Assembly: GCA_947589675.1 (NCBI GenBank)
Contig: CANQCI010000013.1
Coordinates: 1-42,472 of the forward strand
DNA length: 42,472 nucleotides
Direction of reading: 5' to 3'
DNA from: an uncultured Bacilli bacterium
Lineage (GTDB): Bacteria > Bacillota_I > Bacilli_A > RF39 > UBA660
The position numbers were made by a program, and so were the translations under genes. Numbering within the stretch: position 1 is the first letter of the stretch; the number at the start of each line of letters is the position of its first letter. Under the pieces are notes generated by a model that worked only from the letters and a program-made list of their open reading frames with translations, had not been told where the DNA came from and ran no database searches. This document shows positions 34,970 through 42,318 of the stretch, piece by piece.

Positions 34970-36127
34970 ATGAAAAAAGTTGTAATATTTTTACTTGCTA
35001 CTGTGCTTTTTATCAGTCCTACTTATGCTTCGGAAGATTATGCTCCCACAGCGAAAAGTGCTATTTTAATTGATGCCGCAACGGGGGAAGTTTTATACGA
35101 AAAAAATGCGGATGTAAAACTTCCACCCGCCTCAATGACTAAATTGGCTACTTTACTTTTAATCATGGAAAATATTGATGCTGGCAAATTACAGTATACT
35201 GATATGGTTACCATTAGCGAAGAAGCCGCAAACATGGGTGGTTCCCAAGTCTTTTTAGAAGCTGGGGAATCTTATAGTGTAGCTGATTTAATTAAAGGAA
35301 TTGCTATTGCCAGTGGTAATGATGCCGTGGTTGCCATGGCGGAAAAACTAGGTGGTTCGCAAAGTGAATTTGTCGATATGGTTAATAAACGATTAAAAAA
35401 ACTTGGGGCTAAAAATACTAATTTTGTGAATGTCCATGGTTTAGATGATGCCAATCATTATTCGACCGCTCGGGATATGGCATTAATTGCTAAAGAATTA
35501 TTAAAACATGAAAAAATATTAGAATTTACTAGTATTTATGAAGAATATTTAACAAAAAATGATGGAACTAAAACTTGGTTAGTTAACACTAATAAGTTAG
35601 TGCGATTTTACGAAGGAGTTGATGGTTTAAAAACAGGGTTTACGAATGCCGCAGGGTACTGTTTGACAGCCACAGCCAAAAAGAATAACTTTCGGCTTAT
35701 AAGTGTTGTCATGGGCGAAGATACTAGTGAAAATCGGAGTGCTGACACTGTTAAATTATTAAATTACGGTTTTAATACTTTTAAAATAAATGTTATTAAA
35801 AATAAAGAAGAAATTTTAGGAACGGTGCATATCGAAGGTGGTAAGAAAGATAAAGCAGATGTTGTGTTAGTAAATGATGCGACTGAACTTTTAAAAACTA
35901 CGGAACAAGCTAATAATTATTTTTTTAAAATAAATGTAACGAAAATTAAAGCTCCCGTCAAACCCGGTGATGTGATTGGTAAAGCTACAATAATAGATGA
36001 TAAAAATAATATTATTGATGAAGTAGATGTAACGGTTAAAGAAAAAATTGAAAAAGCCAAGTTAATTGATTATATTTATCGTAATGTCAAAACTCTAGCT
36101 GGGGGAAAAACAGTTATAAATAAGTAA
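34970..36127 (+). CDS. dacF: D-alanyl-D-alanine carboxypeptidase (DacF/PBP5 type)
   Basis: This 385-aa protein has a signal peptide at residues 1-20 (MKKVVIFLLATVLFISPTYA). Penicillin-binding motifs are SMTK (Ser55, Lys58), SGN (115-117) and KTG (221-223). A PBP5-type C-terminal beta domain and an end helix (KLIDYIYRNVKTLAGG) for membrane attachment follow. It removes the terminal D-Ala of peptidoglycan stem peptides. In Bacillus, dacF sits directly before spoIIAA-spoIIAB-sigF; here the same order is kept with a sortase and LCP gene in between. The symbol rests on that context as well as on family. Confidence 0.85.
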   Translation: MKKVVIFLLATVLFISPTYASEDYAPTAKSAILIDAATGEVLYEKNADVKLPPASMTKLATLLLIMENIDAGKLQYTDMVTISEEAANMGGSQVFLEAGESYSVADLIKGIAIASGNDAVVAMAEKLGGSQSEFVDMVNKRLKKLGAKNTNFVNVHGLDDANHYSTARDMALIAKELLKHEKILEFTSIYEEYLTKNDGTKTWLVNTNKLVRFYEGVDGLKTGFTNAAGYCLTATAKKNNFRLISVVMGEDTSENRSADTVKLLNYGFNTFKINVIKNKEEILGTVHIEGGKKDKADVVLVNDATELLKTTEQANNYFFKINVTKIKAPVKPGDVIGKATIIDDKNNIIDEVDVTVKEKIEKAKLIDYIYRNVKTLAGGKTVINK

Positions 36128-39482: not shown

Positions 39483-39491
39483 TTTGTCGAA
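39483..39491 (+). promoter_or_regulatory. Spo0A box upstream of spoIIAA
   Basis: TTTGTCGAA is an exact match to the consensus 0A box (core TGTCGAA), 53 bp before the spoIIAA start. The Bacillus spoIIA operon is activated by Spo0A~P with sigma H, so the site makes biological sense. No convincing sigma H -35/-10 pair was recognised. Confidence 0.6.
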
Positions 39492-39543
39492 TCGGTATAA
39501 AAATTAAATTTTTTTTACTATATTAGATACGAAGGTGAGGAAA

Positions 39544-39876
39544 ATGTTAAAAATGGATTTAGAATATAAAAAAAATATTTTATTTGTTCGTTTAAAAGGG
39601 CATTTAAATTATAAAAATACTTATAAAATAAATACCTTTTTAAATCCGGTGGTTATGAAACATAAAATTAAATACTTAGTTTATAATTTAGAAGATTTAG
39701 AAAGTATAGATTCCTCGGGAGTCGATGCAATTATTCATTCAAAGAGGGCAATTAAGAGTAATCAAGGGAAATTAGTTATGTGTCATACTAATTATAAAAT
39801 TAAAAATGCATTAAGAAAACTTAGATTACCAAGTATTGATAAAGAAAATAAAATATATAAATTAATCGAGGCTTAA
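39544..39876 (+). CDS. spoIIAA: Anti-anti-sigma factor SpoIIAA (STAS domain)
   Basis: From ATG 39544 the protein has 110 aa (MLKMDLEYKKNILFVRLKGHL), with GGTGAGG 4 nt upstream; a GTG at 39535 is inside that site. The STAS fold is clear: FVRLKGHLNYKNTYKI, KYLVYNLEDLESIDSSG with Asp56-Ser57-Ser58-Gly59, GKLVMCH. Ser58 coincides with the serine phosphorylated by SpoIIAB in Bacillus. The sigma factor gene begins 1 bp after the stop, and no kinase gene lies between. Length and position next to the sigma factor and spoVA favour SpoIIAA over other STAS proteins. Confidence 0.85.
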   Translation: MLKMDLEYKKNILFVRLKGHLNYKNTYKINTFLNPVVMKHKIKYLVYNLEDLESIDSSGVDAIIHSKRAIKSNQGKLVMCHTNYKIKNALRKLRLPSIDKENKIYKLIEA

Positions 39877-39877
39877 T

Positions 39878-40528
39878 ATGGATAAAATAGAAGAAAGAAT
39901 AATTAAAGATAATGTTGGTCTTATTTGGAAAATTGCTAGTCATTTTTATGGGATTGATAAAAAAGATTTATTTCAAGCTGGTGCTTTAGGGATTATTAAA
40001 GCTTATCGGAATTATCATGAAAATGGCAATACTAAGTTTAGCACTTATGCTCATGATTATATATATGGCGAAATGTATAATTTGGCTTGTAATAAAGAAA
40101 TTAAAATTAGTCGGGACTTAAAAAAATTATATTATAAATTAGAAAAAGCCCGTTATACTTTAGCTCAAAAGCTTGAACATATTCCCAGTAATCAAGAATT
40201 AGCTCAATATTTAGAAATGGATGAGGAAAAAATTAATCAAGCTTTAGCTTGTGCTGTATCGCTTATTTCTATTGATGAAGATTTAGAAGAAACTCGTAAT
40301 TTACATGAAGTTTTAGCAGTTCCGGAAAAAGTTTCTGAAGATGATCGCATCCTTTTAGGTAGTTGCTTAGATAATTTAGATAAATTAGAAAAGGATATAA
40401 TTAATGCTCGCTATTTTGAAGACTTAACCCAAAGTGAAACAGCCCAAAAGTTAGGAATTACGCAAGTGATGGTTTCACGATATGAAACGAAAAGTTTAGC
40501 CAAAATGCGTGAGTTTATGTATAGGTAA
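39878..40528 (+). CDS. sigF: Sporulation sigma factor (sigma F/G type)
   Basis: This 216-aa protein has region 2 (DLFQAGALGIIKAYRNYHENGNTKFSTYAHDYI), region 3 (LEHIPSNQELAQYLEMDEEKI) and region 4 (LTQSETAQKLGITQVMVSRYETKSLAKM). It is shorter than Bacillus sigma F (255 aa), mainly at the N-terminus. Sigma F switches on early forespore genes, including in Bacillus the spoVA-related programme via sigma G. Its placement directly after spoIIAA and before spoVAC fits the spoIIA operon. Sigma G is a possible alternative because the two are close paralogs. Confidence 0.82.
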   Translation: MDKIEERIIKDNVGLIWKIASHFYGIDKKDLFQAGALGIIKAYRNYHENGNTKFSTYAHDYIYGEMYNLACNKEIKISRDLKKLYYKLEKARYTLAQKLEHIPSNQELAQYLEMDEEKINQALACAVSLISIDEDLEETRNLHEVLAVPEKVSEDDRILLGSCLDNLDKLEKDIINARYFEDLTQSETAQKLGITQVMVSRYETKSLAKMREFMYR

Positions 40529-40563
40529 TTAAAATTTTGTCATAATAATTTTAGGTGATTGCT

Positions 40564-41001
40564 ATGAATATTAAAGAATATCAGAAATTAGTTAAAGATT
40601 TATCACCTCGGGAAAATCGGTTAAAAAATATGGCTGTTGCTTTTTTCGTCGGCGGTCTTATCGGTTTTTTAGGTGAGTTTTATCTTTACTTATTAACTGA
40701 AAGTTTTGGAATGAGTCGAGCTGATGCCTTTTCTTGGTTATGTTTAACTCTTATATTGTTGGGTACTTTACTAACCGCTTTAGGCTTTTTTGATAATTGG
40801 TTTAGTAAATGTAAATGTGGTTTAATCATTCCCACCACGGGGTTTGCTCATTCTATTACCAGTTGTGCATTAGACTTTAAAAAGGAGGGATTAATTACGG
40901 GCTTAGGGGCTAACTTTTTTAAATTAGCAGGTTCAGTAATCTTATACGGAATTATCTCGGCTTTTGTTTTAACTATTGTGAGAGTGATGTTAGGTGGCTA
41001 G
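40564..41001 (+). CDS. spoVAC: Stage V sporulation protein AC
   Basis: From ATG 40564 the protein has 145 aa (MNIKEYQKLVKDLSPRENRLKNM); the frame extends to GTG 40555, which is part of the AGGTGA site. Four hydrophobic segments and the typical GLIIPTTGFAHSITSCALDFKKEG loop are present. It is a mechanosensitive-type channel subunit of the spore inner membrane for dipicolinic acid movement. It overlaps spoVAD by 8 bp. The reduced spoVA set C-D-E is the version common outside Bacillus. Confidence 0.92.
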   Translation: MNIKEYQKLVKDLSPRENRLKNMAVAFFVGGLIGFLGEFYLYLLTESFGMSRADAFSWLCLTLILLGTLLTALGFFDNWFSKCKCGLIIPTTGFAHSITSCALDFKKEGLITGLGANFFKLAGSVILYGIISAFVLTIVRVMLGG

Positions 41002-41971
41002 TACTAAATATAAGAATGTTTATTTAACTGATTATTACACTATTGTTGGACCTTTAGAAAAAGAAGGACGTTTAAGAGGTTATAATATAGCCTTAGATAA
41101 TTATTATTATAATGAAAATACTTTTGAAAAAGCTGAGATTAAAATGCAAAAGGTAGTCATTGATAATATTTTATTTAAAAATGGTTTAAGAAATGATGAT
41201 ATTGATTTATTAGTCGGGGGTGATTTATCAAATCAAATTTCGGTTACTAATTATAGTGCTAAAAATTTTGGCTTTCCTTTTTTAGGGGTCTATGCCGCTT
41301 GTGCGACATTCCCTGAAAGTTTAATAATCGGGGCTAATTTCTTAGATAATATGGCTTATAAAAAAATTATATCCATTACCAGTTCCCATAATTTAACCGC
41401 CGAAAAACAATTTCGCTATCCAATCGAATATGGTGCTCCTAAACCCCATACCGCTACATTTACCGCCACAGGGTCAGTAGCAACATTGCTAACAAAAGTG
41501 CCTGGACATATAAAAATTGAATCATCAACTATTGGTACGCCAATTGATATGGGGATCAAAGATGCTAATAATATGGGAGCGGTAATGGCACCCGCCGCAG
41601 CTTTAACTTTAAATCGCCATTTACAAGATTTAAAACGAAGTCCTGAATATTATGATTTAATATTAACTGGAGATTTAGGCTGTGTTGGCAGTGAAATCTT
41701 TAAACAATATTTAAAAATTAATAATGGTATTACTTTAAAAAATTATAAAGATGCCGGTTGTGAACTTTTTTTAGAAGACCAAGAAACCTATGCGGGGGGA
41801 AGTGGTCCAGTGTGTTTGCCTTTAGTTTTATTTAATCGGATACTTAATAGTCGCAAATATCAAAAAATCTTAATAATTGGTACTGGTTCTCTTCATTCCT
41901 CAACCCTAGTCAATCAAAAAAATACTATTCCGGCCATAGCTCATGCCGTAAGTTTGGAGGTTGTAAGATGA
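40994..41971 (+). CDS. spoVAD: Stage V sporulation protein AD
   Basis: This 325-aa protein has a thiolase-like fold. Blocks include DLLVGGDLSNQISVTNY, FPFLGVYAACATFPESL (Cys at the thiolase-like site), TSSHNLTAEKQFRYP, GDLGCVGSEI and GSGPVCLP. SpoVAD binds dipicolinic acid for import into the forespore. It starts with GTG at 40994 inside the end of spoVAC. It overlaps spoVAE by 4 bp (ATGA). Confidence 0.95.
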   Translation: MASTKYKNVYLTDYYTIVGPLEKEGRLRGYNIALDNYYYNENTFEKAEIKMQKVVIDNILFKNGLRNDDIDLLVGGDLSNQISVTNYSAKNFGFPFLGVYAACATFPESLIIGANFLDNMAYKKIISITSSHNLTAEKQFRYPIEYGAPKPHTATFTATGSVATLLTKVPGHIKIESSTIGTPIDMGIKDANNMGAVMAPAAALTLNRHLQDLKRSPEYYDLILTGDLGCVGSEIFKQYLKINNGITLKNYKDAGCELFLEDQETYAGGSGPVCLPLVLFNRILNSRKYQKILIIGTGSLHSSTLVNQKNTIPAIAHAVSLEVVR

Positions 41972-42318
41972 ATTATATTTATGCTTTTTTATTTGCTGGG
42001 GTTGCTTGCTTAATTGCTCAAATTATATTAGATAATACGAAATTAACCCCAGGACATATTACTAGTTTATTTACTGTCGGGGGAGCTATATTATCATTTT
42101 TAGGAATTTATGATAAATTTATTGGTAAGTTCGGAGCTGGAGCCACAGTCTTAATTTCTAACTTTGGGCATAATCTTTATCAAGGAGCCATCGAAGGCTT
42201 TTATGAGAATGGCGTTTTAGGAATTTTTGGAGGTATGCTTTCTAAATCATCATTAGCTATTGTGGCAGCCATTGTCTTTTCTTTCTTCATTTCCTTTTTC
42301 TTTAATTCGAAAGATTAA
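41968..42318 (+). CDS. spoVAE: Stage V sporulation protein AE
   Basis: This 116-aa protein has three or four membrane segments; characteristic stretches are CLIAQIILDNTKLTPGHITSLF, GAGATVLISNFGHNLYQGA and GGMLSKSSLAI, as in SpoVAEb/SpoVAE. It completes the SpoVAC-D-E dipicolinic acid channel. GGAGG lies upstream within spoVAD. It ends the operon. Confidence 0.93.
   Translation: MNYIYAFLFAGVACLIAQIILDNTKLTPGHITSLFTVGGAILSFLGIYDKFIGKFGAGATVLISNFGHNLYQGAIEGFYENGVLGIFGGMLSKSSLAIVAAIVFSFFISFFFNSKD

Follow-up and report, generated by a model that had tools for sequence, protein, structure and literature searches.

The sigma-F operon and its promoter

The window analysed here, 42,472 bases long with a GC content of 29%, is the entire contig C13 of an RF39 genome of 1.46 Mb in 60 contigs. 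Close to its right end, a gene for a SpoIIAA-like STAS protein is followed after a single base pair by the gene for sigma-F and then by spoVAC, spoVAD and spoVAE, and the contig ends 154 bases past spoVAE. An LCP-family gene is the upstream neighbour of the Spo0A box and the operon. The features are:

34970 to 36127, plus strand: dacF-like D-Ala-D-Ala carboxypeptidase gene (PF00768)
39483 to 39491, plus strand: Spo0A box TTTGTCGAA, with an exact match to the core TGTCGAA at 39485-39491
39519 to 39524, plus strand: −10-like TATATT of the conserved promoter, 34 nt past the first base of the Spo0A box
39544 to 39876, plus strand: orphan SpoIIAA-like STAS protein, 110 aa (TIGR02886/PF01740; AlphaFold model and profile match to SpoIIAA)
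39878 to 40528, plus strand: sigma-F, 216 aa (TIGR02980/TIGR02885; groups with SigF in the tree)
40564 to 41001, plus strand: spoVAC (TIGR02838, 1.5e-41; PF03862)
40994 to 41971, plus strand: spoVAD (PRK08304, 1.6e-108; PF07451)
41968 to 42318, plus strand: spoVAE (spoVAEB; TIGR02839, 1.3e-33)

The open reading frames and coordinates bear out the first-pass annotation, which had described this gene order, a perfect Spo0A box ahead of it and the lack of spoIIAB between the STAS and sigma-F genes. The spoIIA operon of Bacillus and of outgroup Bacilli (dacF-spoIIAA-spoIIAB-sigF, then spoVA) is alike in the order of dacF, the STAS gene, sigF and spoVAC-D-E, in the Spo0A box and in the SpoIIAA fold. 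In synteny comparisons, some relatives have dacF immediately before the STAS gene and some outgroups have it immediately before spoIIAA, and the dacF-like gene of the window is a remnant of this dacF-spoIIA-spoVA neighbourhood. The three-gene partner-switch arrangement, with spoIIAB between spoIIAA and sigF, is not found in the window.

The sigma factor matches TIGR02980 at about 1e-44 and TIGR02885 at about 3e-43, the latter with 148.5 bits against a cut-off of 321.45. Its identity as sigma-F comes from its position behind a Spo0A box in the spoIIA-spoVA order and from a sigma-factor tree, in which the family forms a clade (support 0.98) that groups with the SpoIIAB-adjacent SigF of other Bacilli (support 0.84). 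Separate genes encode the SigG and SigE of this genome, which fall outside the SigF group; an intact SpoIIGA-SigE-SigG cluster lies on contig C21. Three outgroup genomes (loci L066, L067 and L068 of G037, G049 and G039) encode even shorter sigma-F proteins, of 181-197 aa, beside an intact SpoIIAB, and a short sigma-F is therefore not tied to SpoIIAB loss. Separately, three relatives within the genus (G014, G026 and G023; L317:1572-6485, L318:3-6965 and L319:1443-7988) encode very large proteins (about 535-1,630 aa) that contain sigma-70-like stretches and whose genes often lie in tandem; the two stretches that were scanned contain complete sigma regions 2, 3 and 4.

Conservation was assessed over 183 distinct STAS-sigma pairs of the family. 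The exact TGTCGAA motif, for which about 0.03 chance occurrences are expected per 200 nt, is present in 164 of the 183 distinct upstream regions, in most cases at a distance of 55-65 nt from the STAS start. The consensus over these 164 aligned regions reads TGTCGAA, then TGTWTAAAA...TGTNCTATATT. By this comparison the promoter is the most conserved part of the operon, and its layout suggests activation by Spo0A and an extended −10 element. Spo0A itself is encoded in the genome (240.9 bits). The box at a nearly fixed position, together with the presence of Spo0A, strongly supports the earlier proposal that the entry signal has been retained.

Loss of the kinase, the phosphatase and the phosphosite

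The distribution of the switch proteins was followed in a panel of 59 genomes, in a first set of 36 genomes from the window's family and in a larger set of 291 family genomes covering 150 genera. These are profile searches, which a kinase or anti-sigma factor of unrelated sequence would escape. A search of the window's own genome for a GHKL kinase of the SpoIIAB/RsbW type gave no PF13581 match at E<=10 and four weak TIGR01925 matches, each part of a sensor-kinase-like frame of 353-605 aa. SpoIIAB was found over cut-off in none of the 291 family genomes. In the 59-genome panel it passed the cut-off in eight, all from other families of the class and comprising all eight outgroups with a sigF locus, and in every one of these spoIIAB stands between the genes for SpoIIAA and SigF.

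The one stand-alone SpoIIAB/RsbW-like hit in a genus relative (L065, in G027) was rejected. Its contig, G027:C68, has a GC content of 67% and sits in an AT-rich bin; compared with the 29% GC of the window, this composition makes contamination the most likely origin. The same contig also carries that genome's second SpoIIR.

Comparison with relatives showed that the STAS-sigma junction without spoIIAB recurs across the family in dozens of independent assemblies, which excludes an assembly artefact. Two explanations raised in the first-pass annotation, a faulty assembly and a spoIIAB gene that has merely moved elsewhere, found no support beyond the contig's ending soon after the operon and are refuted by this recurrence and by the absence of SpoIIAB over cut-off throughout the family set. 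In a tree built from the proteins of the operon, the pattern fits a single loss at the base.

The SpoIIE-type phosphatase is likewise gone from nearly all family genomes. PF07228 gave no match over cut-off in the 36 family genomes of the first set and matches in 6 of the 291, four of them strong and two weak (G178 and G230). Three of the four strong matches, when scanned, proved to be RsbU/SiaA-like with an RsbW-like C-terminus and scored far below the SpoIIE cut-off; the fourth, L154, is by sequence nearly a copy of the first, except that its kinase-like part is encoded in a neighbouring frame. These PP2C phosphatases of 537-667 aa (L151-L154, in G327, G173, G150 and G234), three of which carry a C-terminal RsbW-like kinase domain, are a rare, separate partner-switch-like module. 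Neither the cognate SpoIIAB nor the SpoIIE expected alongside a SpoIIAA was found in the window's genome. RF39 differs from the Bacillus and outgroup spoIIA systems in lacking spoIIAB anywhere and, in nearly all genomes, the SpoIIE-type phosphatase; the phosphosite and docking residues of SpoIIAA are erased, and part of the family has also lost the STAS gene.

The STAS protein has nevertheless kept the SpoIIAA fold. Its AlphaFold model (pLDDT 90.6) has as its best PDB match SpoIIAA from a SpoIIAB complex (1thn_B, TM 0.90), and its profile matches SpoIIAA 1th8_B with E=1e-19. The match to TIGR02886 has an E-value of 7e-15 but, at 54.9 bits, falls short of the cut-off of 114.75 for the curated family. 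Arg67 of B. subtilis SpoIIAA lies in both the SpoIIAB and the SpoIIE interfaces (PMC11418112). All eight outgroup SpoIIAA proteins have both Ser58 and Arg67, in the contexts D-S-S-G and R-Y. In the family, Arg67 occurs in 1 of the 183 STAS proteins, is absent from that of the window and is never found together with Ser58. Other residues around the phosphosite that are common to all outgroups have been lost as well.

At the position of SpoIIAA Ser58, the family proteins have Glu (59 of 183), Leu (22), Ile (18), Asn (14), Met (14) or Ser (13), among others. Positions 58-59 are hypervariable, while the flanking D57 and G60 are kept in 179 and 178 sequences, and G19, L21 and G75 in the window's numbering are nearly invariant. 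Glu at position 58 might act as a phosphomimetic, which is our assumption by analogy. The window's own serine is residue 57 of the 110-aa reading frame that starts at the ATG at 39544 and is equivalent to Ser58. Parsimony on two trees placed Glu at the ancestors of the window's lineage, with an ambiguous state at the family root, and the serine looks like a re-gain from Glu. A serine re-gained on a Glu background is no evidence for a working phosphorelay, and the emphasis that the first reading had laid on a phosphorylatable Ser58 is not sustained, this residue being no conserved feature of the family.

These losses also bear on the proposal that sigma-F is held, and the STAS protein phosphorylated, by another GHKL protein, for instance one of the histidine kinases or an RsbU-RsbW-like fusion. 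The four weak TIGR01925 matches in kinase-like frames of the window's genome, and the few family members with PP2C-type proteins bearing an RsbW-like part, could be read in its favour. However, those four matches resemble ordinary sensor kinases, the PP2C/RsbW-like proteins occur in just 4 of 291 genomes, and the acceptor serine is missing from 170 and Arg67 from 182 of the 183 STAS proteins. With phosphosite, Arg67 and SpoIIE-type phosphatase lost, an alternative kinase partner is very improbable. The RsbV-RsbW-SigB switch likewise pairs a STAS antagonist with a sigma factor of the SigB/F/G family, but there a GHKL kinase forms the hub, and the RF39 set is without it.

Sporulation genes and reports on RF39

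The later steps of the spore programme are represented in the window's genome by SpoIIGA, SigE, SigG and the SpoVA proteins, and by SpoIIR, which is present in 34 of the 36 family genomes of the first set. According to a 2024 study (PMC10868615), RF39 retains spoIIGA and other genes but has spoIIAB and spoIIE reduced or absent; the study predicts that RF39 forms spores with altered regulation. The absence is thus known at the level of gene lists; in the literature searched, including the accessible part of that study, we did not find the operon of RF39, its STAS protein and phosphosite, the STAS loss or the Spo0A promoter described. Relative to that part of the study, the new detail is the orphaned STAS protein, its erased phosphosite, the repeated loss of its gene and the conserved promoter.

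Could RF39 be non-sporulating, with the operon retained for another purpose? The predictor SpoMAG gives RF39 genomes a sporulation probability of 0% (PMC12536801), and spoIIAA, spoIIAB, sigF and spoIIE are listed for all spore-forming bacilli and clostridia (PMC3533761). Against this stand the retention of spoVAC-D-E, SpoIIR, SpoIIGA, SigE, SigG and Spo0A, the prediction of spores with altered regulation in PMC10868615, and an egg-surface transplant that moved few taxa, RF39 variants being among them together with known spore formers (PMC7028958). We consider a non-sporulating RF39 improbable. Candidatus Arthromitus is comparable as a spore former of the gut whose gene set is reduced and whose controls have been trimmed, but it differs from RF39 in keeping SpoIIAA, SpoIIAB and SpoIIE (PMC3533761).

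Fate of the STAS gene and control of sigma-F

The STAS gene stands directly before the sigma gene in 183 distinct loci, with gaps mostly of −11 to +28 nt; in genus g2 (L037:366-2863), metK lies between the two genes, which are not adjacent. Close STAS pairs mostly have dN/dS values of 0.01-0.34; a single pair, with eight changes, stands at 0.91. Among more distant pairs the ratio rises to 0.3-0.75, where synonymous changes are starting to saturate. Where it is kept, the gene is, by these ratios, under purifying selection. A STAS profile match was obtained in 209 of the 291 family genomes and a sigma profile match in 259, some of the latter probably representing only SigG. Eighteen genomes with sigma-F and no STAS match were sampled; none had a STAS gene upstream of sigma-F, and 16 had TGTCGA near the sigma start. 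In five of the 80 named loci sigma-F stands alone, with no STAS gene recognisable, including that of Candidatus Coprovivens excrementavium, which has been placed in the order RF39 (PMC8035907, PMC12788396), and all five carry the same Spo0A box and promoter just 5' of sigma-F. The STAS gene has been lost repeatedly. In many genera sigma-F now follows this promoter on its own.

Such repeated loss with retention of the promoter, together with the hypervariable positions 58-59, would be expected if the STAS gene were a functionless relic in slow decay, kept mainly by its position between promoter and sigma-F. This explanation is unlikely given that dN/dS in close pairs is mostly well below 1, that D57, G60 and the window's G19, L21 and G75 are nearly invariant, and that the gene persists in 209 genomes.

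A marginally better case can be made for the orphan STAS protein having become a direct regulator of sigma-F, as an anti-sigma factor or chaperone, which would convert a three-protein into a two-protein switch. The near-constant adjacency of the genes with their short or overlapping junctions, the purifying selection on the STAS protein, its new conservation pattern and the opposite net charges of the two proteins (means of +6 for STAS and −3 for sigma; +12 and −6 in the window) all agree with it. However, an AlphaFold model of an in-frame STAS-sigma read-through fusion had a pTM of 0.44 with no confident packing, and STAS-sigma covariation (1.34) fell inside the re-pairing null of 0.88-1.49, two tests of which neither can exclude contact between the proteins. 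Several genera, moreover, have sigma-F without the STAS gene. On balance, a direct regulatory role is unlikely.

The reading that we favour, and hold to be probably correct, is that in the uncultured order RF39 the sigma-F partner switch has been dismantled, that the Spo0A-driven promoter runs sigma-F and that SpoIIAA survives as an orphan with a role outside a phosphorelay. Of the three options offered by the first-pass annotation for the missing spoIIAB, rewired sigma-F control is the one that the data support. On the other side, all genomes analysed are metagenome assemblies, and no description of an RF39 spore was found in the literature searched. SpoIIAB and, in nearly all genomes, the SpoIIE-type phosphatase are absent, remains of the dacF-spoIIA-spoVA cluster persist, and SpoIIAA has retained its fold and lost both the phosphosite and the Arg67 docking residue. 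Transcription that depends on Spo0A would then be the main determinant of sigma-F output, no release by phosphorylation would take place in the forespore, and the STAS protein would have an auxiliary, phosphorylation-independent role; the later steps (SpoIIR, SpoIIGA, SigE, SigG and SpoVA) are retained.

Since the kinase is gone from all family genomes examined and the phosphatase from nearly all, the spore programme must start in another way. Uncompartmentalised sigma-F is lethal in B. subtilis (PMC11418112), making some unseen control likely in RF39 also. More tentatively, and with less confidence than in the dismantling of the switch, we suggest that sigma-F of RF39 may operate without any anti-sigma factor or partner switch. 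Either Spo0A-dependent transcription would by itself give the cell-specific onset, or a novel and unrelated device would provide it. The orphan STAS protein, in which a putatively phosphomimetic Glu is frequent, would have acquired a new function that does not depend on phosphorylation.

Loss of spoIIAB may explain why RF39 is scored as non-sporulating, the predictor having found spoIIAB in every genome that it called a spore former, and a Ser58 in a single genome can suggest a phosphoswitch that does not exist. A gut lineage that has sigma-F and its cascade but no switch would mean that the cell-specific control of sigma-F can be achieved differently or may be dispensable.
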